Of a DNA stretch of 64,000 bases, positions 4,643 to 54,542 are shown one piece after another. The notes under the pieces were generated by a model. The model saw only the letters and a list, made by a program, of their open reading frames with translations, searched no databases and was not told the origin of the DNA. Source of the DNA: Pseudoxanthomonas sp. SE1. GTDB taxonomy: Bacteria > Pseudomonadota > Gammaproteobacteria > Xanthomonadales > Xanthomonadaceae. Within the stretch, counting starts at the first letter, position 1, and each line of letters begins with the position of its first letter. The DNA lies in contig NZ_CP113783.1 in the NCBI RefSeq assembly GCF_029542205.1, positions 2,099,001 through 2,163,000 on the forward strand, read 5' to 3'. A program made the position numbers and the translations under genes.

Positions 4643-4649
4643 ACGTACA

Positions 4650-5063: not shown

Positions 5064-5066
5064 GCG

Positions 5067-12080: not shown

Positions 12081-12177
12081 GCCAAGCGCTGTTACACCCT
12101 AACGCTGCAGCGCGATGACAGTTTCCTGAATTGCGTGATTGTCTAACGCGCAAGGGACTGACTACCATGCGCGCACC

Positions 12178-29266: not shown

Positions 29267-30679
29267 TCAGCTCTCGGTCAACGGCAAGAGGATGTAGAAC
29301 TTGGTCAGCTTCTCGTCGGACAGCGCGCTGACCGACCCGCCATGCGCCTCGACGATGGATTTGACGATGGCCAGTCCCAGCCCGGCGCCTTCGCCCTTTC
29401 GGTGGGCGGCGTGCCCCACCCGGTAGAAGCGGTTGAAGATGCGCGAGAGCTCCTCGGGTGGAATCTTCTCGCCGGGATTCTCCACGCTGATGATGACGTC
29501 CCGATCCTTCTGCGAGAACCTCACGGTGATGGTTTCGCCACTGGGCGTGTACCGGATCGCATTGGAGATCAGATTGCTGAGCGCCCGGCGAAGCATTTCC
29601 CGATCACCGCGGATCGGTGTCGTGCGGCCGCGAAGTTCGAGCTTCACGCCTCGCTCTTCCACCAAGGCCTCGAAGTACTCGAACAGCCCCCGGACGGCGT
29701 CCTCAAGGACCACGCTCTCCAGATTCAGATTGCCCGGATCGTTCTCGGTCTGAGCCAGGAACAGCATGTCGTTGATCATGCGGTTCAGGCGCCCGAACTC
29801 TTCCAGGTTGGAATAGAGAATCTCCCGATACTCGTCGGCCGAGCGGGCCTGACCGAGCGCCACTTCCGTCTGCGTGGTCAGGTTCGTGACCGGCGTGCGC
29901 AACTCGTGGGCGATGTCGGCCGAGAAGTTCGCCAGTTGCTCGAACCCATCCTCGATGCGCCCGAGCATGTCGTTGAAGGACGCGATGGTTTCTTCCAGCT
30001 CGACCGGTACAGCCTTGGGATCCAATCGCAGATACAGCTTGGACGAGGTGATCGCGCGAATCTTCTCGTTCGCCCTGTGGATCGGAATGTGCCCCCAGCG
30101 AACCGCGAACCAGGCGACAAGGATCGCGATGCACATGACCACGCAGATGGTCCACCACTGGATGCGCTTGAAGCTCCGGATGAATTCGAGATGGCCGCCG
30201 ATGTTCATCGCCACGGCGATCGTGTAGGTACCGCTCAGACTGGTGTCGCCCCCGACCTGGATGACGCCACCTCGATAGGACTTCCCGTTCTCTTCCCATA
30301 TCGTCATGCTTTGCCTGTCCGCCAGAGGGACGGGAGGTGTGCGCCGGGCGAAGCTCGCCAGGTCCGGACCGTCCTTCGGCGCGTACAGCGTCTTTCCGCC
30401 GGCATCAGCGACATAGTAGTAGACCCCGTGATGCCCCCGAACCGCACGGCGCAAGGCCTGCGTATCGCTTCCGTCCTGCACCTCGCCCAGTGCCCGGATG
30501 ACCGAACTGGCGATCACGCCCAACTCTTCCTCATCCATTTCGGCGAAATGCCGGTCGAGGGATCCCACGCTGACCCAACTGAACAGAAGGAGCACCACCA
30601 TCATCGCGATGCCGACGAGGCCGGTGACCCGTGCGGAGAGCGACGCCGGACGCCGCAGAAAGGCAAACCGGTCAGGCAT
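29267..30679 (-). CDS. copS: CopS/CusS-type heavy-metal sensor histidine kinase
   Basis: A 470-residue membrane kinase starting at 30679 ([11 protein letters not shown]), overlapping the copR stop by 8 nt. Two membrane helices (about residues 18-38 and 180-200) frame a periplasmic sensor domain. HAMP, then the H-box [17 protein letters not shown]-box [11 protein letters not shown] and G-boxes ([15 protein letters not shown]) follow. It is the heavy-metal sensor kinase class (IrlS/CusS) that detects periplasmic Cu. Together with CopR it probably controls the motifs found at five copper promoters in this window. Confidence 0.87.
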
Positions 30680-31352
30680 CCGGCAGGTCCAGCGTGTAGC
30701 CCATGCCACGTACGGTCTGGATGAGCTTGGGCTCGAAGCTGTCGTCGATTTTGGCGCGCAGCCGTCGGATCGCGACGTCGATGACGTTGGTGTCGCTGTC
30801 GAAATTCATGTCCCAGACCTGCGAGGCGATCAGCGAACGCGGCAGCACTTCGCCTTGGCGACGCGCCAGCAGTTCGAGCAAGGCGAACTCCTTGCTGGTC
30901 AGGTTGATACGCTGCCCGGCCCTCGTGGCACGACGGCGCGCCAGATCCAACTCCAGATCCGCAATCTGGATGCGATCGTGCGGAATAGGCGAACCCCCTC
31001 TGCGCAACAACGTCCGGACGCGTGCGAGCAGTTCCGAGAACACGAACGGCTTGACCAAGTAGTCGTCGGCGCCCAACTCCAATCCCTGGACGCGATCGTC
31101 GACGCTGCTGCGAGCGGTCAGGAACAGCACCGGCACCTGGTTGCCGGCCGCCCGGATGGTTTGCAGGATTTTCCGCCCATCCATGCCCGGCAACATGACG
31201 TCGAGCACGATCAGGTCGTAATGCTCGGTCGTGGCCATATGCAGGCCGTCGGGCCCATCGCGCGCCAAGTCGACGACGAACCCGGCCTCCATCAGTCCTT
31301 GACGGACGTAGTCCGCCGTCTTGTGCTCGTCTTCGACAACCAGAAGTTTCAT
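30672..31352 (-). CDS. copR: CopR/CusR-type response regulator
   Basis: A 226-residue OmpR/PhoB-type regulator starting [20 protein letters not shown] at 31352. The receiver domain has the acidic pair ED, the phospho-acceptor Asp in [13 protein letters not shown], and K in YLVKPF. The winged-helix DNA-binding domain holds [24 protein letters not shown] and [14 protein letters not shown]. Heavy-metal-type regulators of this subgroup (CopR, CusR, CzcR) bind imperfect palindromes upstream of metal genes. A candidate box lies 99-128 nt before the start (31451-31480), consistent with autoregulation. Confidence 0.88.
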
Positions 31353-31450
31353 GTCAGCCCTATGCCCGCACTCGTTCGTGCTTCCGGCCCCCGCCACGAC
31401 GGATGGATCATGATGGGTCACTGGAATCTATCGAGGCGAAGCTGCCATAA

Positions 31451-31480
31451 GGATGACGCAAAGATTACATATTGGTAATC
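31451..31480 (-). promoter_or_regulatory. candidate CopR box upstream of copR
   Basis: On the minus strand, ATTACC-AAT-ATGTAATC, then 4 nt, then CGTCATCC. It shares the composite layout ATTRCA-n3-ATGTAATS-n4-SGTCATYC with four other copper-gene promoters in the window and points toward copR. Confidence 0.6.
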
Positions 31481-32441: not shown

Positions 32442-33096
32442 CCCGCCCGCCTACGGCCTCTGGTTTCTGGCGCTGGTGAACGCCGGCATCTTCATTCTGT
32501 TCGCCCTGAGCTTCTTCAAGCCGACGACGGCGCGCGACTGGCGCTCGCTGGGCGCGTTTTCCGCCTTCATCGTCGCCCTGTTCGTGGAAATGTACGGCTT
32601 TCCGCTGACGCTCTACCTGTTGGCGGGTTGGGTGGGCAATCGTTTCCCGGGACTGGACCCGCTGTCCCACGACGCCGGCCACATCTGGCCCGCACTCTTC
32701 GGTTGGTCGGGAGATCCTCATCTCAATCCGTTCCACCTGGCCAGTTACATGCTGATCGGCAGCGGGTTCTGGCTGATCGCCGCCGGCTGGCGGGTGTTGC
32801 ACGAGGCTCAACGCGCCGGATCGCTTGCCACCACCGGGCCGTACGCCCATGTGCGGCATCCGCAGTACGTGGGCTTCATCCTGGTGCTGATCGGATTCTT
32901 CCTGCAATGGCCCACACTCGTGACGGGCGTGATGCTGCCGATTCTGCTGGTCATGTACTGGCGGCTCGCCAAGCGGGAGGAGCGCGAGGTCGAAGCGACG
33001 TTCGGGGATCAGTATCGACGCTACGCGAGCGACGTGCCTGCATTCGTGCCGCGGCTTGGGCGCTTGTTCAACAATAGAGAAGGCCAGATCGAATGA
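32431..33096 (+). CDS. isoprenylcysteine carboxyl methyltransferase-family membrane protein
   Basis: A 221-residue protein with five to six membrane helices. The C-terminal signature GPYAHVRHPQYVGFILVLIG and EEREVEATFGDQYRRYA is that of the ICMT/PEMT (NnrU-like) family, which uses S-adenosylmethionine. The substrate is unknown. Homologues frequently sit beside copper ATPases. The start at 32431 (MTGNPPAYG) overlaps the DUF2933 gene, and the stop overlaps the ATPase start (ATGA). Confidence 0.78.
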   Translation: MTGNPPAYGLWFLALVNAGIFILFALSFFKPTTARDWRSLGAFSAFIVALFVEMYGFPLTLYLLAGWVGNRFPGLDPLSHDAGHIWPALFGWSGDPHLNPFHLASYMLIGSGFWLIAAGWRVLHEAQRAGSLATTGPYAHVRHPQYVGFILVLIGFFLQWPTLVTGVMLPILLVMYWRLAKREEREVEATFGDQYRRYASDVPAFVPRLGRLFNNREGQIE

Positions 33097-36178: not shown

Positions 36179-36189
36179 GGAGCACCATC

Positions 36190-39068: not shown

Positions 39069-39089
39069 GACGTCGCGGCAGTATCTCCA

Positions 39090-40913
39090 TTGGAGGCCAA
39101 GATGCGCCCACGTGAAACTCTGACTCGTTCAGCGAAGCGCGCTGCGGGCAGATCCAGAAGCGAAAGGGCTGTTCACGCATCACCCGTGGCAGCCGTGCCG
39201 TCGGTGTCGACAGATCATTCCGCCGAACAAGCGCTTGCAGGTTCTGCCGTGTACGACTTCGCTCAGGCAGTGGGCTACTCGCGTGACGTGTTCGAGCGCG
39301 CGGTGCTGTTCTGGGACACGCTGCGCCAGCGGGCCGACGACATGATCGCCCACGAGCGCGCGGGCAAGCCTCCGCTGCTGGACTTCGACTACGAAACCCT
39401 CCTCGATGCCCGGCGCTTCGAGCGTCCGGCCAACTACGCGCTCCTTCGCATCACGCGGGCCGGGGACCACTGCATCGAAGACTGCCTGGATGCCTCCAGG
39501 CCGCCCGTGGTGGTCGTCGATCCGCGTGCCGGACATGGCCCAGGCATCGGCGGCTTCAAGACCGACTCCGAAGTCGGTATCGCGCTGCATCGCGGCCATG
39601 CCGTTTACTTCGTCTCGTTTTATCCTGAACCATGTCCCGGCCAGACGCTCGCGGACGTGTTGCAGGCGCTGCGGCGCTTCGTGGAGGAAGAGGCGAGGCG
39701 CCATCCCGGCCTGCCTCCTGTGCTGTACGGCAACTGCCAGGCGGGTTGGGCGCTCACGCTGCTCGCGGCGGACTGCCAGGGCCTGAGCGGGCCAGTCGTG
39801 CTCAACGGATCGCCGCTGTCCTACTGGGCGGGCGCCGCGGGTATGAACCCGATGCGGCTCGCCGGAGGATTCGTGGGCGGCGTGTGGATGACCCATCTGC
39901 TCGCGGATCTGGGCAATGGTCGTTTCGACGGCGCCTGGCTCATCCAGAACTTCGAGAATCTCAAGCCGGAAGGCGTGTGGGAGAAGTACGCCAACCTCTT
40001 CGCTCATGTGGATACCGAGCGTGATCGCTTCCTCCAGTTCGAGCGCTGGTGGAATGCCTGGTACTTCATGAGCCGCGAAGAGATCGTCGCCATTGTCGAG
40101 AACCTGTTCATCGGCAACCGTCTTGAGGAAGGCAAACTGCGGATCGACGAGCACTGCGCCGTCGACCTGAAGCGCATCCGCAACCCGCTGGTGGTCTTCG
40201 CCTCCTACGGTGACAACATCACGCCGCCTCACCAGGCACTGGGCTGGATTCCCGTGGTCTATCCCGACACGAACGCGCTCAAGCAGGCGGATCAGCGCAT
40301 CGTCTACCTGACCAACCCGCATGTTGGTCACCTGGGGATCTTCGTCTCCGCGAAGGTCGCCCGCTTCGAGCATCGGGCCATCCTGGAGACCCTGGCGGAC
40401 GTCGAGGCATTGGCCCCGGGCCTCTACGAGATGAGGATCGACAACCCTACCGGCGACCCGGATTGCGCGCGGTCGCAGTACACCGTCCGTTTCGAGGAGC
40501 GACAGGTCGAGGACCTGCGGTTCGATGTCCCTAGTGCAGCGTTCGAGAAAGTGCGAGGGATGTCGGAGACGAACGAATTGTTCTACAAGACGTTCGTGAG
40601 TCCCGTCGTGAGCGCCATGAGCAATCCCTGGAGCGCCCCGGCGCTGGAATGGCTGCATCCGATGCGCACCAGCCGCTACCTGCTTTCGGAGGCCTTCAGC
40701 CCTTGGATGCACGCCGTCGCGGCCCTGGCGCCCCTGATCAGGAAGGAGCGGACGCCATTGCCCGCGGACAACCCCTTCGCGGCGCAGGAGCAGGCGGTGA
40801 TCGCGCAGGTTACCCAGGCCATCGAAGATGGGCGCAAGCATCGCGACGAGGCGATGGAATGGTGGTTCGCGCTTGTGTTCGGCGCCATGCCGAGAAGGCT
40901 CGGCGCGGCCTGA
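39090..40913 (+). CDS. DUF3141 alpha/beta-hydrolase (PHA synthase-like)
   Basis: A 607-residue DUF3141 protein. The central alpha/beta-hydrolase core has VVVVDPRAGHGPGIGGFK, then GNCQAG with Cys near residue 216 as likely nucleophile, as in PHA synthases (GxCxG), followed by FASYGDNITPPHQALGW and NPHVGHLGIF supplying the Asp and His. It has no signal peptide. Substrate is unknown; acyl-CoA or polyester-related chemistry is inferred from the Cys nucleophile. Last gene of the operon that starts with DUF2933; a 21-nt gap separates it from the phosphorylase gene. Confidence 0.82.
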   Translation: MEAKMRPRETLTRSAKRAAGRSRSERAVHASPVAAVPSVSTDHSAEQALAGSAVYDFAQAVGYSRDVFERAVLFWDTLRQRADDMIAHERAGKPPLLDFDYETLLDARRFERPANYALLRITRAGDHCIEDCLDASRPPVVVVDPRAGHGPGIGGFKTDSEVGIALHRGHAVYFVSFYPEPCPGQTLADVLQALRRFVEEEARRHPGLPPVLYGNCQAGWALTLLAADCQGLSGPVVLNGSPLSYWAGAAGMNPMRLAGGFVGGVWMTHLLADLGNGRFDGAWLIQNFENLKPEGVWEKYANLFAHVDTERDRFLQFERWWNAWYFMSREEIVAIVENLFIGNRLEEGKLRIDEHCAVDLKRIRNPLVVFASYGDNITPPHQALGWIPVVYPDTNALKQADQRIVYLTNPHVGHLGIFVSAKVARFEHRAILETLADVEALAPGLYEMRIDNPTGDPDCARSQYTVRFEERQVEDLRFDVPSAAFEKVRGMSETNELFYKTFVSPVVSAMSNPWSAPALEWLHPMRTSRYLLSEAFSPWMHAVAALAPLIRKERTPLPADNPFAAQEQAVIAQVTQAIEDGRKHRDEAMEWWFALVFGAMPRRLGAA

Positions 40914-40975
40914 CGATTCGTGGTCGCGGCTTGGTTGCGTAGTGGATCGGCGGATGAAGGCTTAGGCGCCAGTCG

Positions 40976-42580
40976 TCACAAGTGACCGGAGCGCGAGATC
41001 GCCAGAACCAGGCGTAGCGACAGCAATAGGGCCAGCAAATACGCGACGACCGCGAACAACGGCATGTCGCCCCAGATGCGAGGCCCAATGCTGTGCTGCA
41101 TCAAGAGCGATCCAGCAAGGTAAAGCCCCAGCGTGATCAACGCGACCGACAGTCTGTTGCCGGTCCGGCTGATGTTGGCCTGCAATGCCTCAAGCCCCCG
41201 GTGGTACATGGTCAGGCTCGGCCTGCCATCATCCACCATCGCCGACCTGAGCAGTTCTGATGCGATCGTCGACAAGCTGTCGGCCGTGCGCGCAGCACGC
41301 TCGGCCACCGGCCGCCGGCTGCGGCTCGCCTCCTTGCTCAACGAAGCTGCAAGGGTTTCGCGGTGGAGCTCGAAACTTCCCAGCAGGTTGAACTCCGGAT
41401 CGAGCTGGCGAATCGTGTTCTCGACCAGGAACAGTGTTCGGATCAGGACCAGCAGATGCCGGGGCAGCCGGAAACGCTCTCCTCCGCCCAGGCTTGAGAT
41501 CCGCCACACCATCTCGGCCAGCGACCACTCGGTGACGGGCAGGCTCTCCAGTTTGTCGAGAATCTCGCCGATGGCGCGCGTGTACTCGCGACGGTCCACG
41601 GGTGCAACGATGAAACCCAGAAGAAGCGCCGAATCCAGCACCTCGTCCGCATCCGCATAGGGCACGGCAGCGATCATGCGTGCGAGTGCCAGCCGCGCCT
41701 TTGGATCTAGGTATCCGATCGAGCCGAAGTCATGAAGGCACAGTCGCCCATCCGCCATCGCGAACAGGTTTCCTGGATGTGGGTCGGCGTGGTACACGCC
41801 GCGAACGAACAAGAGGTGCAGATAGGCATTGAACAACTGATCGGCAATGGCGCGCCCTCGGTCGCTTCCGGCGAAGTCGGTGACGACGACGCCGCTGCTG
41901 TATTCCTGAACCAGTACGTTAGGCGAGACATAGGGCTCGACGACGCGGGGCATCATGACGCCTGGCAGCCCCGCGATTGCTGACTGCAAACGCCGCATAT
42001 TCCGCGCTTCGTGATCCAGATCGATTTCTGCAAGCAACTGCATGCCGAGTTCGTCGATCAGCGCCAGCGGCTGTTGCCGCCTGAGCTGCGGCCACACAGG
42101 AAGCAAAATCCTCACCAGCAAGCGCAGCAGCAGAAGATCGGTCTTGACCTGGGAGACGACACCGGGGCGGCGAACCTTGACCACGGCTTCTTGCCCGTCG
42201 TGCGTACGGGCTCGATGAACCTGGGCCACGGACGCTGCAGCAAAGGGAATTGCATCGAACCGTGCGAACAGCGTTGCCGCCGGTTGACCGAACGCATCTT
42301 TGATGGCAGCTTCGGCAAGCTGCGACGAGAACGGCGGCACCCGGTTATGCAAGTCCTCCAGCACCACGCGGTACGCGTCGGGCAGCATGTCGCGACGCAA
42401 GCTCAAGCCTTGACCGAGCTTCACGAAAGTCGTGCCCAGCCCCTCCAGCGTCTCGCGCAATCGCTCCGCCAGCACCGATGGCGTGGTCTTCCGCAGGCGC
42501 CACCATGCCAAACCGAATCCAAGGGCAGCGACCACAATCTGAATGCCACGACGCAACGATGAGATTCGGGGTGGACGCAT
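40976..42580 (-). CDS. UbiB/ABC1 (AarF/ADCK)-family kinase-like protein
   Basis: A 534-residue atypical kinase. The KxGQ motif (FVKLGQGLSLRRDMLP, about residue 52) replaces the usual Gly-rich loop. AAASVAQVHRA and VVKVRRPGV carry the Ala-rich loop and the Lys; the catalytic region is GVYHADPHPGNLF and LHDFGSIGYL. Two hydrophobic helices form the C-terminus (about residues 475-530). Family members support ubiquinone biosynthesis or lipid homeostasis. It lies downstream of copB in the same direction, so it may link quinone supply to the copper stress operon; this is inference. Confidence 0.85.
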   Translation of the reverse strand: MRPPRISSLRRGIQIVVAALGFGLAWWRLRKTTPSVLAERLRETLEGLGTTFVKLGQGLSLRRDMLPDAYRVVLEDLHNRVPPFSSQLAEAAIKDAFGQPAATLFARFDAIPFAAASVAQVHRARTHDGQEAVVKVRRPGVVSQVKTDLLLLRLLVRILLPVWPQLRRQQPLALIDELGMQLLAEIDLDHEARNMRRLQSAIAGLPGVMMPRVVEPYVSPNVLVQEYSSGVVVTDFAGSDRGRAIADQLFNAYLHLLFVRGVYHADPHPGNLFAMADGRLCLHDFGSIGYLDPKARLALARMIAAVPYADADEVLDSALLLGFIVAPVDRREYTRAIGEILDKLESLPVTEWSLAEMVWRISSLGGGERFRLPRHLLVLIRTLFLVENTIRQLDPEFNLLGSFELHRETLAASLSKEASRSRRPVAERAARTADSLSTIASELLRSAMVDDGRPSLTMYHRGLEALQANISRTGNRLSVALITLGLYLAGSLLMQHSIGPRIWGDMPLFAVVAYLLALLLSLRLVLAISRSGHL

Positions 42581-42682: not shown

Positions 42683-43729
42683 TCAGAACCACAAGCGCAG
42701 GCCGACCACCCAGCGGTTGTCGGTTCGGGAATGACCGCTGAGCCTGCGCAGGTCGGACGTCTCGCCGAAGCTCCATTCGCGCTCGAACCCGATATAGGGC
42801 GCGAACTGCCGCGTGATCTCGTAGCGCAATCGCACACCTCCTTCTACCGTGCTCAAGCCTGACCCGATGACTTCCGCCGGATCGGACTGCCCGAACCAGT
42901 TGGCTTCGACACCCCAGCTTGCGATCAGCCGGTTGGTGAACAGCATGTCGTACTCGGCCTCGACGATCGCCGCCGTCTTGCCGCCTTCTGCGACGTAACC
43001 CGTTGCGGAAACCTCGAACTTATAGGGCGCCAGCCCCTGAACGCCGAACGCGGCCCAGGTGCGCGGCGTTCCGCCTCCGCCGAAGTCACCGAAATCCCGG
43101 CGCACGCCCACCACGGCATCCCACCAGGGATGGATCGCGCGTCCGTACATCGCCTCCACCCGCGCGCGCTGCAGGTTCTCGTCCAGGGCGTGCCCCTTGG
43201 TCCTCAGCCAGAGGCGGTTGATGTCGCTACCGACCCAGCCGATTCCCTCCCAGGCGATCTCCCTGCCTTCATCCGTGTTCGCCCCTTCCAGCTGATCCAT
43301 AAGCCAGAAGGAGTTCAGGCTGGTTCCATGCTTGTGGTAGTCCTTCAGCGTCGGAAATGCCGCCAGGCGATCGGCATCCGTGACGGCGGGGATGGGTTCG
43401 CGTGGCGAGTCGAACACCCCCATCCGGGAATGATCCATCTGCGAATGGTCGACCTGCGAATGGTCGACCTGCGGACGATCATGCTGCGAATGATCCATCT
43501 GCGAGTGGTCGACCTGTGGGCGACCATGCTGTCCATGATCCATCTGCGAGTGGTCCATGCCGGCATTGGGAGACTGCGCTGTCGTCGCGTCCTCTTCCTG
43601 CTGGTTCGCAGTCGGACTCGACGGGACAGGCTGGCCATGACCGGCGTGCTGCGCGTGGGCGCCGACAGGAGGGAGCAGCAATGCTGCGGCCAGCGCAGCC
43701 CAACGCATCGATGTTCTCACGCTCGTCAT
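42683..43729 (-). CDS. copB: CopB copper-resistance outer-membrane protein
   Basis: A 348-residue protein with signal peptide (cleavage near AHAQHAGHG), a long Met/Asp/His repeat region (about residues 56-103; units such as MDHSQ, VDHSQ) and a C-terminal PF05275-type beta-barrel domain (DINRLWLRTKG, VVGVRRDFG, ending in VVGLRLWF). CopB binds copper and sits in the outer membrane as partner of the multicopper oxidase CopA. Its start overlaps the copA stop (ATGA). Confidence 0.9.
   Translation of the reverse strand: MTSVRTSMRWAALAAALLLPPVGAHAQHAGHGQPVPSSPTANQQEEDATTAQSPNAGMDHSQMDHGQHGRPQVDHSQMDHSQHDRPQVDHSQVDHSQMDHSRMGVFDSPREPIPAVTDADRLAAFPTLKDYHKHGTSLNSFWLMDQLEGANTDEGREIAWEGIGWVGSDINRLWLRTKGHALDENLQRARVEAMYGRAIHPWWDAVVGVRRDFGDFGGGGTPRTWAAFGVQGLAPYKFEVSATGYVAEGGKTAAIVEAEYDMLFTNRLIASWGVEANWFGQSDPAEVIGSGLSTVEGGVRLRYEITRQFAPYIGFEREWSFGETSDLRRLSGHSRTDNRWVVGLRLWF
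43431..43560 (-). repeat. tandem Met/Asp/His-coding repeats in copB
   Basis: Imperfect 12-15-nt units coding for MDHSQ/VDHSQ/HGRPQ repeat at least eight times. They form the copper-binding region of CopB. Repeat number is likely to vary between strains through slippage or recombination. Confidence 0.75.
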
Positions 43730-45606
43730 TCTTCGACCCTCACTTCCCGGAACATCCCGGATTCCATGTGGAAGAAGAGATGGCAGTGGTAGGCCCAGCG
43801 ACCGAGCGCGTCGGCGCGCACCCGGTAGCTGCGCTTCGTGCCCGGCGGCATGTCGATGGTGTGCTTGCGCAAGTGGAAGTTGCCCTGTTCGTCCTCAAGA
43901 TCGCTCCACAGGCCATGCAGATGGATCGGATGCGACATCATGGTGTCGTTCACCAGCACGATGCGCATGCGTTCGCCGTAGTTGAGGCGCAGCGGCTCGG
44001 CGTCGGCGAACTTGATCCCATCGAACGACCAGGCAAAGCGCTCCATGTGGCCGGTCAGGTGCAGCTCCACCGTGCGCCCCGGCTCGCGACCGTCGGGGTC
44101 TTCGAACAGGCTCTTCAGGTCGGCATACGTCGCCACCTTGCGGTCGTTGCCGCGCAGACCGATCCCAGGATCGGACAGTCGCGGCTCCGGCGTCATGGTC
44201 CGCATGTCCACCAGGGGATTGCCCGTTTCGCTGGCCGGATGAGTCTGCATCTGCATGCCGCCGCCTTCATGCGCGGAGTGCGCGCCTGGTGCGGCCGGAA
44301 CGCCGTGCCCGGCATGCGGATCGGCGGCCACGGCCCCCGCCCCGTGGCCCGCGTGGGGGTCCGGCGCCGGCGCGGCGCCATGCCCGGCATGCGGATCGGC
44401 CGATGCGGCCGCCAGTCCGGAATGGGCACCGTGGCCGCCATGCCCCATGTCGGCCATGGTCAGCAGCGGCCGCGGGTCCACCGCCGGTACCGGAGCACGC
44501 AAGCCCTCGCGGACCGCAAGCGTGCCACTGACGTAGCCGGTGCGCGCGGAGTCTTGGGCGAAGATCGTGAAGGCGTCCTGCCCGGTAGGCTCGACGATCA
44601 CGTCGAAGGTTTCGGCAGTGGCGATGCGCAGCTCGTCCACCGTCAGCGGGTGGACGTACTGGCCGTCGACCTCGACGACCGTCATCTTCAGGCCCGGGAT
44701 GCGGACGTCGAAGTAGGTCATCGCCGCACCGTTGATGAAACGCAGGCGCACCTTCTCACCGGCACGGAAAAGTCCCGTCCAGTTGCCCAGCGACGTGGTC
44801 CCGTTTATCAGGTAGGTGTAGGTATGCGCGTTGACGTCGGACAGGTCCGTCGGCGTCATGCGCATGCGTCCCCATGCCTCGCGATCGCTTAGCGTCGCGC
44901 TCAAGCCGTCCCGGCGCACGTCGCGGAAGAAGTCGCCCACCGTACGCTGGTAGTAATTGTCGTACTCCGACAGCTTCTTCAGCCGGGCGAACAGGCGCGC
45001 CGGGTCCATGTCGGTCCAATCGGACAGGAAGACCACGTAGTCTCGATCGTAGGAGAACGGAGGCGGATCGATGGGGTCGATGATCAGCGGCCCGTACATG
45101 CCGCCCTGTTCCTGGAACCCCGAATGACTGTGGTACCAGTAGGTTCCGCTCTGGCGGACATCGAACTCGTACAGGTAGCTCTCGCCGCGGTTGATGCCGT
45201 CGAAGCTGAAGCCGGGAACCCCATCCATGTTGGCGGGCAGCAGGATGCCGTGCCAGTGGATCGACGTCGCGTCGCCGTGGATCGAGCCGGGGGGAAGGTC
45301 ATTCCGGGCCCTGAGCTGCACCCGCGTGCCTTCGCGCCAGCGCAGGATCGGTGCAGGCACCGAGCCGTTGACGGTGATGGCGGGCCGCGTCTTGCCCGTG
45401 TAGTTGACCAGGGTCTCGCCTATGGTCAGGTCGAACTGCGTGCCCGACAGGACTTCGAGCTGGCCAGGGGAGCGGAGCGCCCAGCTCTGCTTCGGCCAAA
45501 GTCCCAGGCCCAGCACTGCGCCACCCGCTGCCAATCCTTGAACGAACTGCCTTCGAGACAGCAGCAGCTGCTCGGCGGCGTTCGTGCCTGAAAGTCTGGA
45601 TCGCAT
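43726..45606 (-). CDS. copA: CopA copper-resistance multicopper oxidase
   Basis: A 626-residue periplasmic multicopper oxidase of the CopA (PcoA) family. The start at 45606 (MRSRLSGTNA) has AGGAGG upstream. The Tat signal is SRRQFVQGLAAGG. Type 2/3 copper ligands: SIHWHG, GTYWYHSHSG, HPIHLHGLW and the final WAYHCHLFFHMESGM with the type 1 Cys-His. An internal Met/His-rich insert (about residues 390-470) contains three DPHAGHG repeats. It oxidises Cu(I) and sequesters copper. A candidate CopR motif lies in the 338-bp upstream region. Operon: copA-copB, possibly with the ubiB-like gene. Confidence 0.93.
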   Translation of the reverse strand: MRSRLSGTNAAEQLLLSRRQFVQGLAAGGAVLGLGLWPKQSWALRSPGQLEVLSGTQFDLTIGETLVNYTGKTRPAITVNGSVPAPILRWREGTRVQLRARNDLPPGSIHGDATSIHWHGILLPANMDGVPGFSFDGINRGESYLYEFDVRQSGTYWYHSHSGFQEQGGMYGPLIIDPIDPPPFSYDRDYVVFLSDWTDMDPARLFARLKKLSEYDNYYQRTVGDFFRDVRRDGLSATLSDREAWGRMRMTPTDLSDVNAHTYTYLINGTTSLGNWTGLFRAGEKVRLRFINGAAMTYFDVRIPGLKMTVVEVDGQYVHPLTVDELRIATAETFDVIVEPTGQDAFTIFAQDSARTGYVSGTLAVREGLRAPVPAVDPRPLLTMADMGHGGHGAHSGLAAASADPHAGHGAAPAPDPHAGHGAGAVAADPHAGHGVPAAPGAHSAHEGGGMQMQTHPASETGNPLVDMRTMTPEPRLSDPGIGLRGNDRKVATYADLKSLFEDPDGREPGRTVELHLTGHMERFAWSFDGIKFADAEPLRLNYGERMRIVLVNDTMMSHPIHLHGLWSDLEDEQGNFHLRKHTIDMPPGTKRSYRVRADALGRWAYHCHLFFHMESGMFREVRVEE

Positions 45607-45944
45607 GCATGACCTCCTATGATCGGTATCGGCTGACATCGAGCCCGCCCGGCCCATCGCCACGATCTGGGTGCCGGCCACGCGCGCCGGAGAAAGCGCC
45701 AGCGTGGTGAGGAACGCGGGTCAGCGTGCGCATGACAAGCCACGTGACGGTGGCCGGAATGCTTGCCAGATGGGCCGCACAGGATCCAGGCAACGGTCGG
45801 GGTTGAACGCAAGGGCGTGGTGCTCGCGTCATGGTGACCAGCCTAGGAGGGGGTCACTTTCGGCGGGATGACCCATCCATTACATTCCCGTCATTTCATG
45901 GTCATTCGCCCTGCCAGAGGCCTCGATGCTTGGGCGGTTGCGCC
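45607..45944. other. 338-bp region between copA and cueR
   Basis: No convincing gene. Short frames on the minus strand are Arg/His/Pro-rich in two registers and have no family resemblance or ribosome binding site; a decayed copL-like gene cannot be excluded. The region contains the candidate CopR motif at 45864-45894 and should hold the copA promoter, with a long 5' leader to the copA start at 45606. Confidence 0.5.
45864..45894 (-). promoter_or_regulatory. candidate CopR box upstream of copA
   Basis: On the minus strand, ATGACG-GGA-ATGTAATG, then 4 nt, then GGTCATCC. It shares the composite layout and orientation with the boxes at 53950-53978 and 54077-54105. Confidence 0.6.
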
Positions 45945-46419: not shown

Positions 46420-48801
<2,382 letters not shown>

Positions 48802-48827
48802 CTCGCCGGTGCAATGGTCACTAAACA

Positions 48828-48858
48828 AGTCTGCGGGTTCCTACGGTGGGAAGGTCAA
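48828..48858 (-). promoter_or_regulatory. CueR-type promoter for the Cu ATPase-cueR operon
   Basis: On the minus strand, TTGACC, a 19-bp spacer (beginning TTCCCACC and ending in GGAACCCG) and CAGACT. The overlong spacer and the TTCC...GGAA dyad are CueR hallmarks. It lies 27 nt before the ATPase start, so the leader is short. Confidence 0.8.
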
Positions 48859-48943: not shown

Positions 48944-49147
48944 ATGCACGCATTTCACATCCAGAACATGACTTGCGGCGGCTGCGTCCGAGGTGTGACG
49001 CGCGCCATCCAGTCCGTCGACCCGGATGCCCGGGTTCAGGCTGACGTTCATACCCGACTGGTGCAGGTCGTGTCCGAGCAGCCTAGCGAGATCGTGAAAG
49101 CCGCCCTGACCAAGGCGGGCTACCAGGCGATTGGCGTCGATCCCTGA
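48944..49147 (+). CDS. copZ: CopZ-like HMA copper chaperone
   Basis: A 67-residue single HMA domain: MHAFHIQNMTCGGCVRGVTR with the Cu-binding MTCGGC, and LTKAGYQAIGV near the end. It carries Cu+ in the cytosol, probably to the divergent ATPase. AGGAGG lies 8 nt before the ATG. Its CueR-type promoter lies directly upstream. Confidence 0.87.
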   Translation: MHAFHIQNMTCGGCVRGVTRAIQSVDPDARVQADVHTRLVQVVSEQPSEIVKAALTKAGYQAIGVDP

Positions 49148-49260: not shown

Positions 49261-49644
49261 TCAGCCGGGATCATCCGGGTGGTCGGGCGCCGCCGGTCGA
49301 CGGCGCCGCCACGACCATCCTCGTTCGATCTCGATTTGCAGTGCAACGCTCAGGAAGGTGCGGATCAGCACGATCAGCGCAAGGATCGCCACGCCCTGGA
49401 GCGAGGGATCGATGGTGACGGTGCGGATGATGTCCGCGGCCACGAGGAACTCCAGGCCCAAGACGATCGTGCCGCCGAGCTCCTGCCGCAGGGCGTGATA
49501 GCGCGCCGTCATCCCGACCTTCGTGTGAAGGAAGGCGAACCGCCCACACGCCAACAGGCTTCCCAGCGTGATGACGCCGACACCGAACAACTCGAATCCA
49601 GCCACCGCGATTCCGATGGCGGCATGTGGCAAGTCGACGCTCAT
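49261..49644 (-). CDS. DUF1622 family membrane protein
   Basis: A 127-residue protein with three hydrophobic helices; GGTIVLGLEFLVAADIIRTV and LIVLIRTFLSVALQIEIE are typical of DUF1622. The Arg/Pro-rich tail is cytosolic. Function unknown. It follows the multihaem cytochrome gene after 12 nt and is probably the last gene of the electron-transfer operon. Confidence 0.78.
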   Translation of the reverse strand: MSVDLPHAAIGIAVAGFELFGVGVITLGSLLACGRFAFLHTKVGMTARYHALRQELGGTIVLGLEFLVAADIIRTVTIDPSLQGVAILALIVLIRTFLSVALQIEIERGWSWRRRRPAAPDHPDDPG

Positions 49645-49656
49645 CGGCCTGTCCGG

Positions 49657-50460
49657 TCAATGGTGGTCGTAGATGCCCACCCCGCGAATGTCGTTCCAAG
49701 ACGTGGTCTGGTGGCAGAGGTAGCATTGCTCGGGCTGCGCATTCCGGACACCCGCAATCGGCTTGGACATCATCGAGAAGTGCTCCTTGTAGTGGCTGAG
49801 CGGCGCGAGATGGCACTGGCCGCACTCGGTGGAACTGGGCAAGGGATGCCTGAACCCGGCGATCGACCACGTGCCGGTGCCGTGGCATGTCGCGCAATCG
49901 TTTCCGAACACCTGGACGTGAGGGTCCGTGGTCTTGTGGCAGCTCGCGCAGTCCAGCAGCGTCTCCTTGTAGGTCATGCCGCTGGCGAGCGAGACGTTGC
50001 CGGGCAGCGCCTCTGGCCTGTGCGCCTTCACGTGCGCGAGCAGCAGCGCGCCCTCGTGGCGCTCCGGAGCACGATCGAGCCATCGCACGATGATGTCGGT
50101 CAGCGCCGCATGGTCCATGCCGCGCAGGCTGCGACCGGCGTCATGTTCCTTGTGGCAGGCCACGCAGTTGTTCGTCTCGGCGATGTCGGCATGGAACGCC
50201 GTCGGCTGCCGCTGCAGGAGGGCGGTTTCGTTGGCATGGCAGGCAACGCAGGTCGCATCCTGCACCCCCTTGACCGGCGTGTGGCACGCCGCGCAATCCT
50301 CCTGCAGGAACGCATGCGCGCTGGACAGTGGGCCAGGCGAGGCCATGCTCTGCCACGTCGCGACGTGCAGCGTCTGCGGCACCGCCTTCCACAGCGCGAG
50401 TGCTGCCACCGACGCCAGCACCGCGAGCAGCGCGACGATGATCGTTCCCTTTCGACTCAT
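49657..50460 (-). CDS. seven-haem cytochrome c (cytochrome c3/NapC-like)
   Basis: A 267-residue protein starting MSRKGTIIVALLAVLASV, an uncleaved signal anchor. It contains seven CxxCH haem-binding motifs: CAACH, CVACH, CVACH, CASCH, CATCH, CGQCH and CYLCH, with extra His residues suitable as distal ligands (HKEHD, HVKAH, HYKEH). It would be a periplasmic, membrane-tethered multihaem electron carrier. Its start overlaps the stop of the cytochrome b gene (ATGA). Partners are the membrane b-type protein and the FNR-ferredoxin protein encoded upstream. Confidence 0.82.
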   Translation of the reverse strand: MSRKGTIIVALLAVLASVAALALWKAVPQTLHVATWQSMASPGPLSSAHAFLQEDCAACHTPVKGVQDATCVACHANETALLQRQPTAFHADIAETNNCVACHKEHDAGRSLRGMDHAALTDIIVRWLDRAPERHEGALLLAHVKAHRPEALPGNVSLASGMTYKETLLDCASCHKTTDPHVQVFGNDCATCHGTGTWSIAGFRHPLPSSTECGQCHLAPLSHYKEHFSMMSKPIAGVRNAQPEQCYLCHQTTSWNDIRGVGIYDHH

Positions 50461-51143
50461 CTGAACCAGCGCAGCCCGAAGTAGATGCCGGCCCAAATGT
50501 GCAGCGCCAGCAGGAGATAGAAGACGATCGAGAACGCGATGTGCGCCGACAGCCAGCCGGTGAACAGCTTGCGCACCCGCTCCTGGAACTGGATTGAGTA
50601 CTGCAGGTCGCCGGCGCCGGACGCCAGCGGCAGCAGTTCGGCGCCGGCCTTGGCCGTGCCGGCGCCGCCTGCCGGCGCCTGCGCGTAGGCCCAGTACGCC
50701 CCATCCAGGAGGCGCCACAGGCCGTCGAGCTGTGTCTTCTTCTCGCGGATGTTCTCGGCGACGTAGCGCAGGTAATGCTGGCCGATGAACCCGGTGAGCA
50801 CGCTCAGCAGCATCGACGCCGTCAGCGCGATCCCGAGCACGCTCTGGAACTTGTGCCCGCTATGGATGATGGCCAGCAGCGCGCCGATCAGGCCGAAATA
50901 CACGTGCGCCTGCAGCAATGCGGCGAAGCTGTGCTCGCGGGTGAATGCGCGGCGTAGCGTGGCGCTGCGCTTGACCACGGTGTAGACGAGCGGCACCAGC
51001 AAGAACGCGGCGCCCACGACGCCGAACACGCCACCCCACAGGCTACCGGCGAAGAACGGAGCGCGGTGTACCAGGAAGCCCAGCCACAGCACCGCCAGCA
51101 TCGACACGATGATCGTCGCGGCGATGCGATCGTGCCTGCCCAT
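50457..51143 (-). CDS. b-type cytochrome-like membrane protein
   Basis: A 228-residue integral membrane protein with about five helices. Paired His candidates for haem b lie in HSFAALLQAHVYFG, AIIHSGHKF, GQHYLRYV and LSAHIAFSIVFYLLLALHIW, resembling ferric-reductase/cytochrome b561-type domains. It starts immediately after the stop of the FNR-ferredoxin gene (adjacent bases) and overlaps the multihaem gene. It is the likely transmembrane step of a conduit from NAD(P)H to periplasmic haems. Confidence 0.75.
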   Translation of the reverse strand: MGRHDRIAATIIVSMLAVLWLGFLVHRAPFFAGSLWGGVFGVVGAAFLLVPLVYTVVKRSATLRRAFTREHSFAALLQAHVYFGLIGALLAIIHSGHKFQSVLGIALTASMLLSVLTGFIGQHYLRYVAENIREKKTQLDGLWRLLDGAYWAYAQAPAGGAGTAKAGAELLPLASGAGDLQYSIQFQERVRKLFTGWLSAHIAFSIVFYLLLALHIWAGIYFGLRWFR

Positions 51144-53279
51144 CTAGGCATCCACCGAGATGTCGGCCGACGCTTTCGCCTGGCAGGCCAGGATCATCCC
51201 CGACGAGCGGTCGAGCGGGGTCAGGCTGTCGTCCACCGCCATGGTGACCTCGCCCGAGAGCAGTTTCACCTTGCAGATGCCGCAGTAGCCCTGCCGGCAC
51301 GCGTACTCGATCGGGACGCCGACTTCTTCGGCGGCCTCGAGGACGGTCTGGCCGGCGATCAGCGGCGCCCTTTTCCCGGATCGCTCGAAGCGGCATGTCA
51401 CGGCCGCAGCGGTGTCGCCGGCTTGGCCCGGTTCGGGCGTCGCCGGCTTGGGCGGGCTCAGGAACAGCTCGGAGTGTATCGACGCCGGATCGATGCCCAG
51501 CTTGCCCAGCTCGTTGCGCACCGCATCCATCATCACCGGCGGACCGCACAGGTGGATGCGGCGCGAGCGGATCTCGGGGATCTGCCCCAGCAGTTCGGCG
51601 GTGATGAACCCGCGTGCGCCGGTCCACTCCTCTGATGACTCCTCACTCAACACGATGGACACATGCAGGTTCGGATGCCGACGGGCAAGCTGGTTCAGCT
51701 CGTCGTGGAAGATCACGTTCTCCAGGTCCTTGCAGGCGTAGACCAGGTCGATCCGGCCGTTCCAGCTCTGGTCGGTCAGGTAGCGGATCGAGCTCATCAA
51801 CGGCGTGATGCCGACACCGCCCCCCAAGAGCACGACGCTGTCGGACTCGACGCCGCGGAAGGTGAAGCGGCCGTACGGGCCGGACGCATCGAGCAGATCG
51901 CCTTCCTGGACGTGTTCGTGGAGGTATCCGGACACGATGCCGCCGCTTTCGTGCTTGACGGTCAGGTCGCACCAGCCATGGCAGCATGGCGATGAGGCGA
52001 TCGAATAAGAGCGCTTGACCTGTTTCCCTTCCGAGGGCACGGAGAGCGTGAGGAACTGGCCGGGCTCGAACTCGAAAGGCAGGGCACCTGTCCCCTCGAC
52101 GGGTGCCAGGCGGAACGTCTTGACCCGGGATGTCTCCGGGAAGATGCGCGCGACCCGCAGCTTGCCGACCCAACTGCCCGTGGTGGACGCAGGCGTGCGC
52201 GCCTGCGGGGCGCCTTCGGGCGAAGCAACGGCAGGTGCCTGTACCGCGGGGCCTGGCGATGCGCCGGCACGCGGTGCCGGGGAGGACGCCGGAGACGCCG
52301 GTGCTCCCGTGCGCAACGTGGCCAGCACCGCGTTCGTACGCCGGTTGCGGGCGACGTACATCCACGCACCCAGCAAGGCAAAAGCCGACAGCAGCGCCAT
52401 CGTGAAGTAGTGAAAGCCCGACAGGCCGAAGACCCCGTGCGCCGGGACCGTGGTCAGGGGATCGGTCAGATTCATTTCGCGACGGAACCAGTCCAACGCG
52501 ATGCCGCGCGGCGCCTGTCCTTCGGCCAGCGCGCGGTAGGCCGACAGGCCGCTGTCAAACTCGCCCCAGGCCACGCGCATCCGATCAGACGCCTCCTGCA
52601 AGCCGGCGTAGTCGTTGCGTTGAACCGCATGCGACGCCTCCGACGACAGGGTCGCCAACTGCTGGATGCCTTCGTGCATCCGATGGTGGGCGAGCTGCTC
52701 GACGCTGGCACGCCGCTCCGGCGGAAGGTCCGGCAGCGCCATCAGTTGGGGATACAGCAGCTTGTTGAGGCGCCGATCGCGACCGCACTCGTCTCCGCGG
52801 CAGCCACGCATCATGTCGTCCATCATGCCGCCCATGGAGCCGCCCATCGACGCACCTGCCGCAGCCGGCATGCCGCCAGCCGCGTCAGGGTGATGCGCGG
52901 CATGGTCGTCATCGCCCATGCCTGCGTCAGCCGGGGTTGGGGTGCCCATCGGCATGCCCTGCATCGGGCTGCTGCCTTGCATCGGTGCGCCCCCGACAGC
53001 CGGTTGCGGCGCCGCCATGTTTGCGGCTTGGTCAGCGTGATCGTCGTCGCCCATCGGCGCGTCAGCCGACGGCGTGGGTTCCATCGGCATGCCACCCATC
53101 GAACTGCTGTCTTGCGCGGCTGTCGTTCCAGCGGCCGCCGTGCTGTTGGTCTTGTTCGGTGGATGAACAGCGTGCGGATCGGCAGTTGTCTGAGCGCCGG
53201 CCGCAGCATACGCCAGCGACATCGCCAGCACGGTCAGGGCAACGATTCGCCTCCACCCCATGAAGCTCTCCGTCGACAC
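51144..53279 (-). CDS. fusion of Met/His-rich periplasmic domain, membrane helix, FNR and [2Fe-2S] domains
   Basis: A 711-residue protein. Order: signal sequence (1-29); low-complexity region rich in Met, Gly, Asp and His (about 30-160; MGGMPMEP, MQGMPMG, GSMGGMMDDMMRG); a helical domain (about 160-285); one membrane helix (about 290-312); a Pro/Ala linker; a ferredoxin-NADP reductase module with RSYSIAS (about 425), GGGVGITP (about 488) and CGPPVMM; and a plant-type [2Fe-2S] ferredoxin with CRQGYCGIC...LACQ (about 661 on). Predicted topology puts the Met-rich part outside and the flavin/Fe-S part in the cytosol. I infer NAD(P)H-driven electron transfer linked to copper. Confidence 0.8.
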   Translation of the reverse strand: MSTESFMGWRRIVALTVLAMSLAYAAAGAQTTADPHAVHPPNKTNSTAAAGTTAAQDSSSMGGMPMEPTPSADAPMGDDDHADQAANMAAPQPAVGGAPMQGSSPMQGMPMGTPTPADAGMGDDDHAAHHPDAAGGMPAAAGASMGGSMGGMMDDMMRGCRGDECGRDRRLNKLLYPQLMALPDLPPERRASVEQLAHHRMHEGIQQLATLSSEASHAVQRNDYAGLQEASDRMRVAWGEFDSGLSAYRALAEGQAPRGIALDWFRREMNLTDPLTTVPAHGVFGLSGFHYFTMALLSAFALLGAWMYVARNRRTNAVLATLRTGAPASPASSPAPRAGASPGPAVQAPAVASPEGAPQARTPASTTGSWVGKLRVARIFPETSRVKTFRLAPVEGTGALPFEFEPGQFLTLSVPSEGKQVKRSYSIASSPCCHGWCDLTVKHESGGIVSGYLHEHVQEGDLLDASGPYGRFTFRGVESDSVVLLGGGVGITPLMSSIRYLTDQSWNGRIDLVYACKDLENVIFHDELNQLARRHPNLHVSIVLSEESSEEWTGARGFITAELLGQIPEIRSRRIHLCGPPVMMDAVRNELGKLGIDPASIHSELFLSPPKPATPEPGQAGDTAAAVTCRFERSGKRAPLIAGQTVLEAAEEVGVPIEYACRQGYCGICKVKLLSGEVTMAVDDSLTPLDRSSGMILACQAKASADISVDA

Positions 53280-53291
53280 AGCGGCCGCCTC

Positions 53292-53819
53292 CTACATATG
53301 GCCCATCTTCTTCTTGGCCATGCCGCCGCCCATGCTCGAATCCATCTTCTGCATGGTCGAATCGACTTGCTGCATCTGCCGCTCGCAGTTCTCCATATCC
53401 TTCTTCATCTGTTCCATGTGCTGCATCGCGGCGGACATGTCCATGTCATTGTGCGTGGACGTGTCTCCTGCCTTCATCGACATGGCCTGCTGATGCATCT
53501 GCATGCTGCCTTCCTGCATCTGGCGGCCCATCGCTTCCATGGCCTTTCCCCGTTCACGCATCATCGTTGCCATCTCCTCCATGTGCGAAGCCATGGCATC
53601 GGGCGAGGCAGGCGAATTCTGGGAAGCAGGAGACTGTGGATCTGAAGCATGTGCCGCCGGAGGATGGGGCGCCGCTGGGGCGCTTGTGCTGGCGGGCGGC
53701 TGCCCCATGGCGCCTGACTGACCATGATTGTGCTTGTCGTCATCGGCCAGCGCCGAGCCGGCGAGCGTCGCACCAAGCAAACAAACCATCACCAGCGAGG
53801 GCCGACGATAATGCCTCAT
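53292..53819 (-). CDS. Met/His-rich periplasmic copper-binding protein
   Basis: A 175-residue protein starting at 53819 with GGAGG upstream. The signal peptide MRHYRRPSLVMVCLLGATLAG is followed by a His/Pro/Ala region and a helical C-terminal half extraordinarily rich in Met (HMEEMATMMRERGKAMEAMG, MQMHQQAMSMK, MSAAMQHMEQMKKDME). Such Met arrays bind Cu(I). First gene of the electron-transfer operon, 12 nt before the FNR fusion gene, with a CopR-type motif upstream. Confidence 0.75.
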   Translation of the reverse strand: MRHYRRPSLVMVCLLGATLAGSALADDDKHNHGQSGAMGQPPASTSAPAAPHPPAAHASDPQSPASQNSPASPDAMASHMEEMATMMRERGKAMEAMGRQMQEGSMQMHQQAMSMKAGDTSTHNDMDMSAAMQHMEQMKKDMENCERQMQQVDSTMQKMDSSMGGGMAKKKMGHM

Positions 53820-53949
53820 GACAACCTCCGATAAGTTGGCGGCGATCCCCATTCGGGAACCGGCGGATGCGGCGCACCCACAAAAGAAACCGGTCCGCGT
53901 CTGCGGCCGGCTTGTTCGCTTCCACCCTACGTACGGCAAGCTGTCGACG

Positions 53950-53978
53950 GGATGACCCCGCCATTACGATGCTGCAAT
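53950..53978 (-). promoter_or_regulatory. candidate CopR box upstream of the electron-transfer operon
   Basis: Minus strand: ATTGCA-GCA-TCGTAATG, 4 nt, GGTCATCC. It matches the composite motif and points toward the gene starting at 53819. Confidence 0.6.
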
Positions 53979-54076: not shown

Positions 54077-54105
54077 ATTGCAGAAATGTAATGAATGGGT
54101 CATTC
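54077..54105 (+). promoter_or_regulatory. candidate CopR box upstream of the 123-residue exported protein
   Basis: Plus strand: ATTGCA-GAA-ATGTAATG, 4 nt, GGTCATTC. This is the copy closest to the consensus and resembles known cop-box sequences of pseudomonads. It lies 66 nt before the start of the gene it faces. Confidence 0.65.
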
Positions 54106-54170: not shown

Positions 54171-54542
54171 ATGAAGTCTGTCAAAGCGTCTTGGGTCATG
54201 ATGTTGTGTGCGATGTTCGCCGTAGCCATTCCGGTCTATGCGCAGCAGCCCACCGAAGAACCGGTCATAACGCTCCTGAACGATATCGCGGACAAGCCGG
54301 AGAACCATCTGGCCATCGCCGCGTATTACCGCACGCTGGCCCGCGAAGCCCTGGCAGAAGCCGAAACGCACAAGACGATGCGCAACACGTATCGCCATAA
54401 TCATCAAGCCTTCAAGAGTGGGACGGCCACGGACCAAACTCTGGCCAGACACTGCGATAAGCTGGTCAAGTTGAAGGAAGAAGCCGCTACGGAATACGAG
54501 GAGCTTGCAAAGCTCCACGAAGCCGAGGCGGCAGCGAGGTAA
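54171..54542 (+). CDS. exported alpha-helical hypothetical protein
   Basis: A 123-residue protein with signal peptide (cleavage near VYAQQ) and a mature part that is helical and charged, with His residues spaced through it (NHLAIAAYYRTLAREAL, ETHKTMRN, YRHNHQAF, RHCDKLVKLKEEA). I do not recognise a named family. Ribosome binding site AGGAG lies 8 nt upstream. A CopR-type box is upstream and an intrinsic terminator downstream, so it is a monocistronic copper-responsive gene, probably a periplasmic metal-binding or stress protein. Confidence 0.65.
   Translation: MKSVKASWVMMLCAMFAVAIPVYAQQPTEEPVITLLNDIADKPENHLAIAAYYRTLAREALAEAETHKTMRNTYRHNHQAFKSGTATDQTLARHCDKLVKLKEEAATEYEELAKLHEAEAAAR

Follow-up and report, generated by a model that had tools for sequence, protein, structure and literature searches.

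A conserved three-gene core within a tightly packed operon

The DNA examined here is a 64,000-nt stretch of the Pseudoxanthomonas sp. SE1 genome (hereafter the window; contig NZ_CP113783.1, positions 2,099,001 to 2,163,000), which carries between 53819 and 49261 on its minus strand a block of five tightly packed genes (Table 1), with gaps of 12 nt at the first and last junctions, 0 nt at the second and an ATGA overlap at the third. Coordinates and packing are those given by an earlier sequence-only reading of this DNA, and the identities that it proposed (a Met-rich protein, a fusion of FNR and [2Fe-2S] modules, a b-type cytochrome, a seven-haem cytochrome c and a DUF1622 protein) agree with Pfam scans and motif counts. 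We place the start of the first gene at the ATG at 53819, which has a ribosome-site-like GGAGG upstream; a longer open reading frame (ORF) beginning with TTG at 53939 is less likely. Met accounts for 17% of its product, counted from residue 23 onward, and Pfam and NCBIfam scans of this protein gave nothing above cut-off.

To compare the block across genomes, 92 loci were assembled: the best 80 of 132 cytochrome b relatives in a genome scan, six on plasmids, and six taken from 398 Pseudomonadota genomes drawn irrespective of copper (the phylum draw). The genome-scan relatives were all found via cytochrome b, and the plasmid loci (L007 to L012) were hand-picked from 52 records. The cytochrome c is present in all 92 loci and the fusion in 91, the sole miss falling at a contig end. 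The order fusion, cytochrome b, cytochrome c is kept in 89 of 92; one exception is a contig end, and the other two (L058 and L088) hold all three genes in overlapping frames. The core unit is this triad, with the DUF1622 and Met-rich genes as optional members: 28 of the 92 loci have a DUF1622 gene no more than 6 kb away on the same strand, and relatives of the window's Met-rich gene occur in 13 of 86, such that the five genes do not form the unit that they had been taken for.

The fusion had also been put forward as novel, and this claim did not hold. It is a standard component of the three-gene module, with 1174 protein matches at E<=1e-20 (7997 candidates sharing most words were scored) and a coverage of at least 75% in 116 of 120 among the matches listed. 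Relatives of the cytochrome b number 851 proteins at 1e-3, and its sequence is identical in loci titled Pseudoxanthomonas, Lysobacteraceae and a proteobacterial metagenome-assembled genome. Among 72,556 plasmid records, relatives of the fusion, cytochrome b and cytochrome c occur in 52, 52 and 53, respectively. Genomic co-occurrence, which the sequence-only reading had suggested as a check, extends for the triad far beyond the lineage: record titles among the best 80 of 132 relatives span eight phyla (Pseudomonadota, Bacteroidota, Nitrospirota, Nitrospinota, Planctomycetota, Acidobacteriota, Verrucomicrobiota and Binatota), some of them inferred from genus or family names in those titles. Within the phylum draw the module is rare, a full-length cytochrome b match being found in 7 of 398 genomes, our own included, while partial matches (30 of 37 genomes) were left out of the module count. 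On the Bradyrhizobium BTAi1 plasmid, two copies of the triad lie about 7 kb apart (L115:1-2005 and 8944-12216), the first cut by the edge of the stretch.

Predicted architecture of the electron-transfer proteins

Pfam scanning of the fusion identified FAD_binding_6, NAD_binding_1 and Fer2. This module order, FAD, NAD and plant-type [2Fe-2S] with four cluster Cys, is that of the phthalate-dioxygenase-reductase class, and the cluster Cys (661, 666, 669 and 699) are unchanged across 46 aligned rows. The AlphaFold model (mean pLDDT 69.4) divides the protein into a signal-like helix (residues 4-27), a low-confidence stretch to residue 172, a helical hairpin (187-268), a single long membrane helix (288-323), a linker again of low confidence, the FNR part (362-605) and Fer2 (627-710). 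Met and His together make up 15.8% of residues 28-172 versus 4.8% of the protein after that stretch, and in all 38 of the 46 aligned fusions in which the arm was measurable it is richer in Met+His than the remaining protein. The enrichment attributed earlier to an external Met/His-rich domain is real, but the conserved part of that domain is the helical hairpin, the Met/His-rich stretch being an extension modelled at low confidence and probably disordered. A Spy/CnrX origin of the external domain was unsupported when the hairpin was compared by hhalign with 28 PF13801-type proteins (probability 0.95%).

Four Lys/Arg residues lie within 15 residues after the membrane helix and none before it, and together with the signal-like start this distribution would place the hairpin outside and the FNR inside. 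Model segments and charges therefore support a periplasmic hairpin and a cytosolic FNR, the latter being the orientation assumed in the sequence-only reading.

Five hydrophobic segments were counted in the cytochrome b, along with HX13H pairs at His 80/94 and 201/215 and nowhere else; all four His are invariant over 64 aligned sequences, and the model of the protein has a mean pLDDT of 88.6. The distribution of positive charges predicts that loops 2-3 and 4-5 are inside and the C-terminus outside. Its relatives are annotated as hypothetical protein or iron reductase. A Pfam scan of the window's protein gave no match above cut-off, and two homologues, P0137 and P0169, match PF01794 below threshold (19.2 and 25.7 bits, cut-off 28); the motif and these sub-threshold matches suggest homology to the ferric-reductase superfamily. 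Structure searches (Foldseek, VIA-align) were swamped by long-helix matches, and a profile search against PDB sequences returned nothing credible. In planctomycete and Nitrospinaceae loci (L062:10001-11638, L044:10001-11638, L074:8054-9679, L090:9902-11563 and L053:6167-7801), the cytochrome b carries a C-terminal extension with a CAAVSC motif on the predicted periplasmic side, which Pfam assigns to DUF547 in both scanned cases, L062 and L074.

The cytochrome c contains seven CXXCH motifs (positions 56, 71, 99, 171, 189, 213 and 246) with c3/c7/MtrC-like matches in Pfam and a single weak tetrahaem match to PDB sequences, and is 45-48% identical to five plasmid homologues from Alpha- and Gammaproteobacteria and Bacteroidota.

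Taken together, these features make it highly probable that the triad serves as an electron conduit through the inner membrane, driven by NAD(P)H. Electrons drawn from NAD(P)H by the FNR/[2Fe-2S] portion of the fusion, on the cytosolic side, would move to the pair of b haems of the five-helix cytochrome b and from there reach the membrane-anchored, periplasmic seven-haem cytochrome c. Judged from domain anatomy, and with the haem sites presumably loaded and electrons presumably moving outward, the carriers most likely follow one another as NAD(P)H, FAD, [2Fe-2S], two b haems and seven c haems; the path drawn by the sequence-only reading fits both sequence and models.

The module is associated with copper genes

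The link between the module and copper is strong. Of 42 module genomes, 25 have a multicopper oxidase (MCO, PF07732) gene no farther than 10 kb away, versus 0.56 expected and at most 5 in 20,000 simulations, and 31 have one within 20 kb, versus 1.1 expected. MCOs were counted as PF07732 rows with E<=1e-9, the expectation was derived from the number of such genes per genome with contig ends ignored, and L050, one of 43 loci, was left out; the 42 genomes are not fully independent, as several each come from Legionella, Stutzerimonas, Pseudoxanthomonas and Nitrospirales. Three of the six other module genomes in the phylum draw have copA, called by TIGR01480 above cut-off, no more than 24 kb away on the contig that carries the module; among all 398 genomes, 80 have it anywhere.

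Plasmid loci display the same association, with copper-named genes in seven of the nine annotated loci viewed. On a Variovorax plasmid the module sits between copper-binding genes and copAB, on a Bradyrhizobium plasmid copAB genes lie downstream of it, and on Sphingobium and Sphingomonas plasmids the operon continues into a four-helix copper-binding protein. The Methylophaga plasmid locus has DUF411 and a heavy-metal ATPase whose best match is the window's copper ATPase (49%). Of 57 groups, 12 and 3 had ATPases best matching the two copper-type queries and 2 had ATPases best matching the Zn/Cd-type query, and 14 of 41 groups with a locus of at least 15 kb had no CopA, CopB or Cu-ATPase marker; in these best-hit counts the marker names (Cu- and Zn/Cd-ATPase, CopB, CusB/C) follow our reading of the window proteins. 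The copper link drawn by the sequence-only reading is upheld by MCO proximity and these plasmid copper islands, as well as by the shared box and the regulator described below.

A sequence element shared with copA

The pattern GTAATG-N4-GGTCAT has three perfect sites in the 4.23-Mb genome, at copA, the operon and the divergent gene; allowing one mismatch adds ten more sites, and the reversed control gave two. The copA and operon boxes both continue with CCCG. A looser form, GTAATN6GTCAT, has seven sites genome-wide, five of them in the window, with none for its control, and 0 of 100 window shuffles reach five. As both patterns were defined after the fact, from the counted sites themselves, it is their rarity elsewhere that constitutes evidence, not the hits. 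This genome has three copA copies (TIGR01480) within about 92 kb of sequence (C1:2142732, 2187663 and 2232640), and the perfect box is found only at the copy in the window. Across 80 scanned loci, it is retained in six, all close relatives.

The sequence-only reading had pointed to a candidate CopR box, which stands. A first pattern that we guessed for it, TGACN3TN3TNAC, has 2 sites versus 0.88 expected and is not significant alone, but the sequence shared between the operon and copA is nearly private to this region. The accessible text of PMC11195947 gives the P. aeruginosa CopR consensus as CTGACAn5GTAAT; its GTAAT half is perfect in all three window boxes, and its TGAC half is clear only at copA, TGACGGGAATGTAAT. 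The response regulator encoded in the window (Table 1) is the genome's only TIGR01387 match above cut-off. With a CopR/CusR-family regulator in the genome and a site shared with copA, as in a common regulon, the operon is very probably copper-regulated in Pseudoxanthomonas sp. SE1, with copper as its presumed inducer, a role to which the shared box lends indirect support.

Features surrounding the operon

Table 1. Operon genes, box sites and copper-related neighbours in the window (positions from the first letter of the window).
Feature	Coordinates	Strand	Basis
Met-rich, probably periplasmic protein, operon gene 1	53292..53819	-	175 aa, signal-like hydrophobic N-terminus
FNR/[2Fe-2S] fusion	51144..53279	-	GTG start, 711 aa; Pfam and AlphaFold segments
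Cytochrome b, predicted five-transmembrane bis-haem-b protein	50457..51143	-	228 aa; HX13H pairs, model
Heptahaem cytochrome c, predicted N-terminal membrane anchor	49657..50460	-	267 aa; CXXCH count, Pfam
DUF1622 membrane protein, optional member	49261..49644	-	127 aa; PF07784 E 6.9e-23
Perfect box GTAATG-GCGG-GGTCAT before operon	53952..53967	-	genome-wide pattern search
Perfect box GTAATG-AATG-GGTCAT facing divergent gene	54088..54103	+	genome-wide pattern search
Divergent exported-looking 123-aa protein behind second box	54171..54542	+	ORF reading
Small ORF with MTCGGC motif	48944..49147	+	direct sequence reading
Copper-type P1B ATPase	46420..48828	-	59% identity to a record's copper-translocating P-type ATPase
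Perfect box GTAATG-GATG-GGTCAT before copA	45868..45883	-	genome-wide pattern search
copA, copper-resistance-type multicopper oxidase, same box	43726..45681	-	TIGR01480 1009.9 bits, above cut-off
copB-like outer-membrane copper-resistance protein	42683..43729	-	by reading and recurrence beside copA
Looser box GTAATN6GTCAT, 31 nt before response-regulator ORF	31453..31468	-	pattern search
Response regulator, CopR/CusR/SilR family	30672..31421	-	TIGR01387 348.3 bits; Pfam
Sensor kinase with CusS sensor domain	29267..30709	-	PF21085 E 2.8e-45

Relatives of the divergent 123-aa protein occur in 8 loci from 5 groups, and its match to NCBIfam LIC_10421 (18.7 bits) is far under the cut-off of 90. The small plus-strand ORF next to the operon we take to be HMA-type and copper-chaperone-like. 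Positions 33093-42580 presumably hold a gene for a second P-type ATPase and, behind it, PRPP-synthetase-like, MBL-fold, thymidine-phosphorylase-like and DUF3141-like genes; L115 has an annotated DUF3141 gene close to the module. Sugar-phosphate genes lie in the module islands of L101 (10801-16146), L010 (17204-19633) and L100 (8489-14975), including glucose-6-phosphate and phosphogluconate dehydrogenases that are annotated in L010 and identified by reading in L101, while L100 has, by reading, other sugar-phosphate genes. A search for near-identical plasmids matched only the window's mercury genes among the matches listed, and look-alikes of filamentous-phage morphogenesis and replication genes, again by reading, occupy positions 1436-6442.

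Relation to known systems

The nearest prior description is that of inner-membrane-protein and multihaem-cytochrome clusters in iron oxidisers, to the extent of the accessible text of PMC5566968. There, the inner-membrane proteins that accompany the multihaem cytochromes of PCC3 and PCC4 in Fe(II) oxidisers have five helices, SGXXG and a pair of HX13H motifs; other clusters, most of them lacking a porin, combine a short protein of this kind with a multihaem cytochrome and mostly another redox protein. The window's cytochrome b is similar in its five transmembrane helices, HX13H on helices 3 and 5, and adjacent multihaem cytochrome, predicted to be periplasmic. At the position of SGXXG on helix 4 it has TGFIG (SGFxG in the consensus of its relatives), and the W found four residues before HX13H in PCC3/PCC4 is matched by W197 before H201, but L76 precedes H80. 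In contrast to the porin and the cytochromes with very many haems of PCC3/PCC4, the five operon proteins include no porin and the cytochrome has seven haem motifs. A further difference is that the window's set includes an FNR/[2Fe-2S] fusion dedicated to NAD(P)H, whose Met/His arm is predicted to be periplasmic. For PCC3/4, quinone-pool exchange and extracellular transfer have been proposed, with copAB treated apart and no copper-resistance link drawn in the accessible text (PMC5566968).

Among distant relatives, 10 of 13 scanned loci have a cytochrome with at least eight CXXCH motifs beside a cytochrome-b-like gene, and four of the 13 also have an FNR-like gene. These four (L107, L110, L113 and L114) constitute a distant sister group with an FNR-like gene, a short HX13H cytochrome b and an eight- to ten-motif multihaem cytochrome. 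Since the distant relatives fit the clusters as described in the accessible part of PMC5566968, the module appears to represent the copper-linked part of a wider group.

Two membrane bis-His haems, an FAD/NAD reductase domain and electrons leaving the cytosol would be shared with the ferric-reductase (FRD) superfamily (PF01794; yeast FRE, NOX); the triad differs in dividing the haem and reductase parts between two proteins, in its additional [2Fe-2S] module and in a seven-haem cytochrome that would extend the path. FRE enzymes also reduce Cu(II), and CcoG is presented as a bacterial Cu(II) reductase, the first specific one (PMC7558416, accessible text). CcoG uses two tetranuclear iron-sulfur clusters, whereas in the five operon proteins the only iron-sulfur domain that Pfam finds is Fer2. 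In MsrPQ with Fre, a flavin reductase feeds a membrane haem b protein toward the periplasm. The operon, unlike MsrPQ, has no molybdoprotein by Pfam (the operon only, the rest of the genome not having been searched) and has a heptahaem cytochrome instead.

The genes orf1 and cyt of the Alteromonas HynSL operon (L011:13644-15193) appear, by gene order, to be the module's cytochrome b and cytochrome c, and an FNR fusion lies directly upstream of them; the accessible text of PMC3102683 handles them only as hydrogenase accessory genes, unnecessary for maximal HynSL activity in E. coli. In the open-access literature (subscription papers being outside the search), we found no functional description of the triad and none of a copper-island branch with a Met/His-armed reductase and a copA-shared box; the accessible open-access texts name no dedicated reductase of periplasmic copper.

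Periplasmic copper reduction and alternative functions

The sequence-only reading had raised Cu(II) reduction, supply of Cu(I) to exporters and electron disposal as possible functions. A copper-induced conduit that reduces periplasmic Cu(II) is an explanation that, taken whole, we place slightly below an even chance. In it, copper would be bound beside the cytochrome by the Met-rich partner and by the fusion's hairpin and Met/His-rich arm, the conduit would most likely serve to reduce protein-bound periplasmic Cu(II) to Cu(I), and the product would then be open to Cu(I)-specific sinks, namely Met-rich and four-helix storage proteins and Cus-type export. A Met-rich protein cluster of the heavy-metal-resistance/Spy type is found in 28 of 86 loci, its gene lying on the same strand and ending within 1.5 kb before the fusion in 22 of the 28 (of two such proteins scanned against PF13801, one was above and one below cut-off), so a likely metal-binding partner recurs beside the conduit. 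On this ground we favour protein-bound periplasmic Cu(II) as the main acceptor, a choice that leads the alternatives while itself falling short of probable.

The main rival, which we regard as rather unlikely, is electron disposal, in which the same conduit would feed the ordinary periplasmic cytochrome/oxidase pool, or the MCO and oxygen, and so give NAD(P)H an alternative outlet under copper damage to respiration. In Methylophaga, Stutzerimonas, Parahaliea and a betaproteobacterium, the module and the copper genes have small monohaem cytochromes as neighbours; four Nitrospira-type loci (L029, L037, L040 and L050) contain, some 6-7 kb away, a gene read as a bc-type cytochrome b; some module loci contain sugar-phosphate dehydrogenases; and a ccm set lies downstream on the Methylophaga plasmid. 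None of these partners is general, however, and 64 of 66 neighbourhood proteins in the oxidase/CopB cluster have no CXXCH. No MCO with a fused haem c domain, an arrangement that would have favoured electron transfer to the oxidase, was found; the two remaining proteins are Legionella ORFs whose one CXXCH sits in an N-terminal extension that is implausible, and we set them aside. Still less likely is that the module is a general periplasmic reductase (for silver, mercury, iron or a hydrogenase partner) riding metal-resistance islands with the copper genes as fellow cargo: mercury genes do adjoin it in the window and on the Methylophaga plasmid, and hydrogenase neighbours and MCO-free surroundings (below) point the same way, but the operon shares its box with copA, copper-type ATPases prevail over Zn/Cd-type ones in the loci, and some operons themselves contain four-helix copper-binding proteins. 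We consider improbable a periplasmic repair function, in which, as with MsrQ and MsrP, electrons would restore methionines or thiols that have become oxidised in the Met-rich copper proteins; a flavin reductase feeding a ferric-reductase-like membrane haem protein next to Met-rich proteins would suit it, but Pfam finds no molybdopterin or Msr domain in any of the five operon proteins, and the acceptor that the operon provides is a heptahaem cytochrome.

Several observations weigh against the copper-reductase proposal. CopA-type oxidases, the commonest neighbours of the module, are held to oxidise Cu(I), so an adjacent Cu(II) reductase could cycle futilely. No MCO lies within 10 kb in 17 of 42 module genomes, the Pontibacter plasmid locus has no copper-named gene within 12 kb (one of the nine viewed), and the Alteromonas plasmid module adjoins a NiFe hydrogenase operon. 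The perfect box is absent from Stutzerimonas loci, where the cytochrome b is 85-86% identical. The copper-binding residues are presumptive, and the hairpin of the fusion has no similarity to PF13801-type proteins by hhalign (again, 0.95% probability). In the main text of a copper transcriptome study of a related strain, Pseudoxanthomonas spadix ZSY-33 (genome CP095475, data PRJNA883805), as far as it is accessible, the operon genes are not named (PMC10667631). Given the hydrogenase-joined and MCO-free placements, the conduit may serve other partners, and the triad may be a general conduit.

Implications

Copper-resistance islands are usually described in terms of pumps, oxidases and chaperones. 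The triad described here adds to these a conserved, apparently NAD(P)H-linked redox engine that often lies in copper islands of distant phyla and that in Pseudoxanthomonas sp. SE1 stands under the box of copA. The cassette has three genes, and its clear knock-out, visible haem spectrum and easy reductase assay open the question of its function to direct testing. Our strongest formulation, that the triad serves specifically to reduce copper in the periplasm, is powered by NAD(P)H and is found in at least eight phyla, often on copper islands, is tentative, and we lean against it more than toward it. If true, it would mean that a split ferric-reductase-like machine with a haem wire sets the redox state of extracytoplasmic copper, and would supply the missing reducing counterpart of CopA-type copper oxidases.

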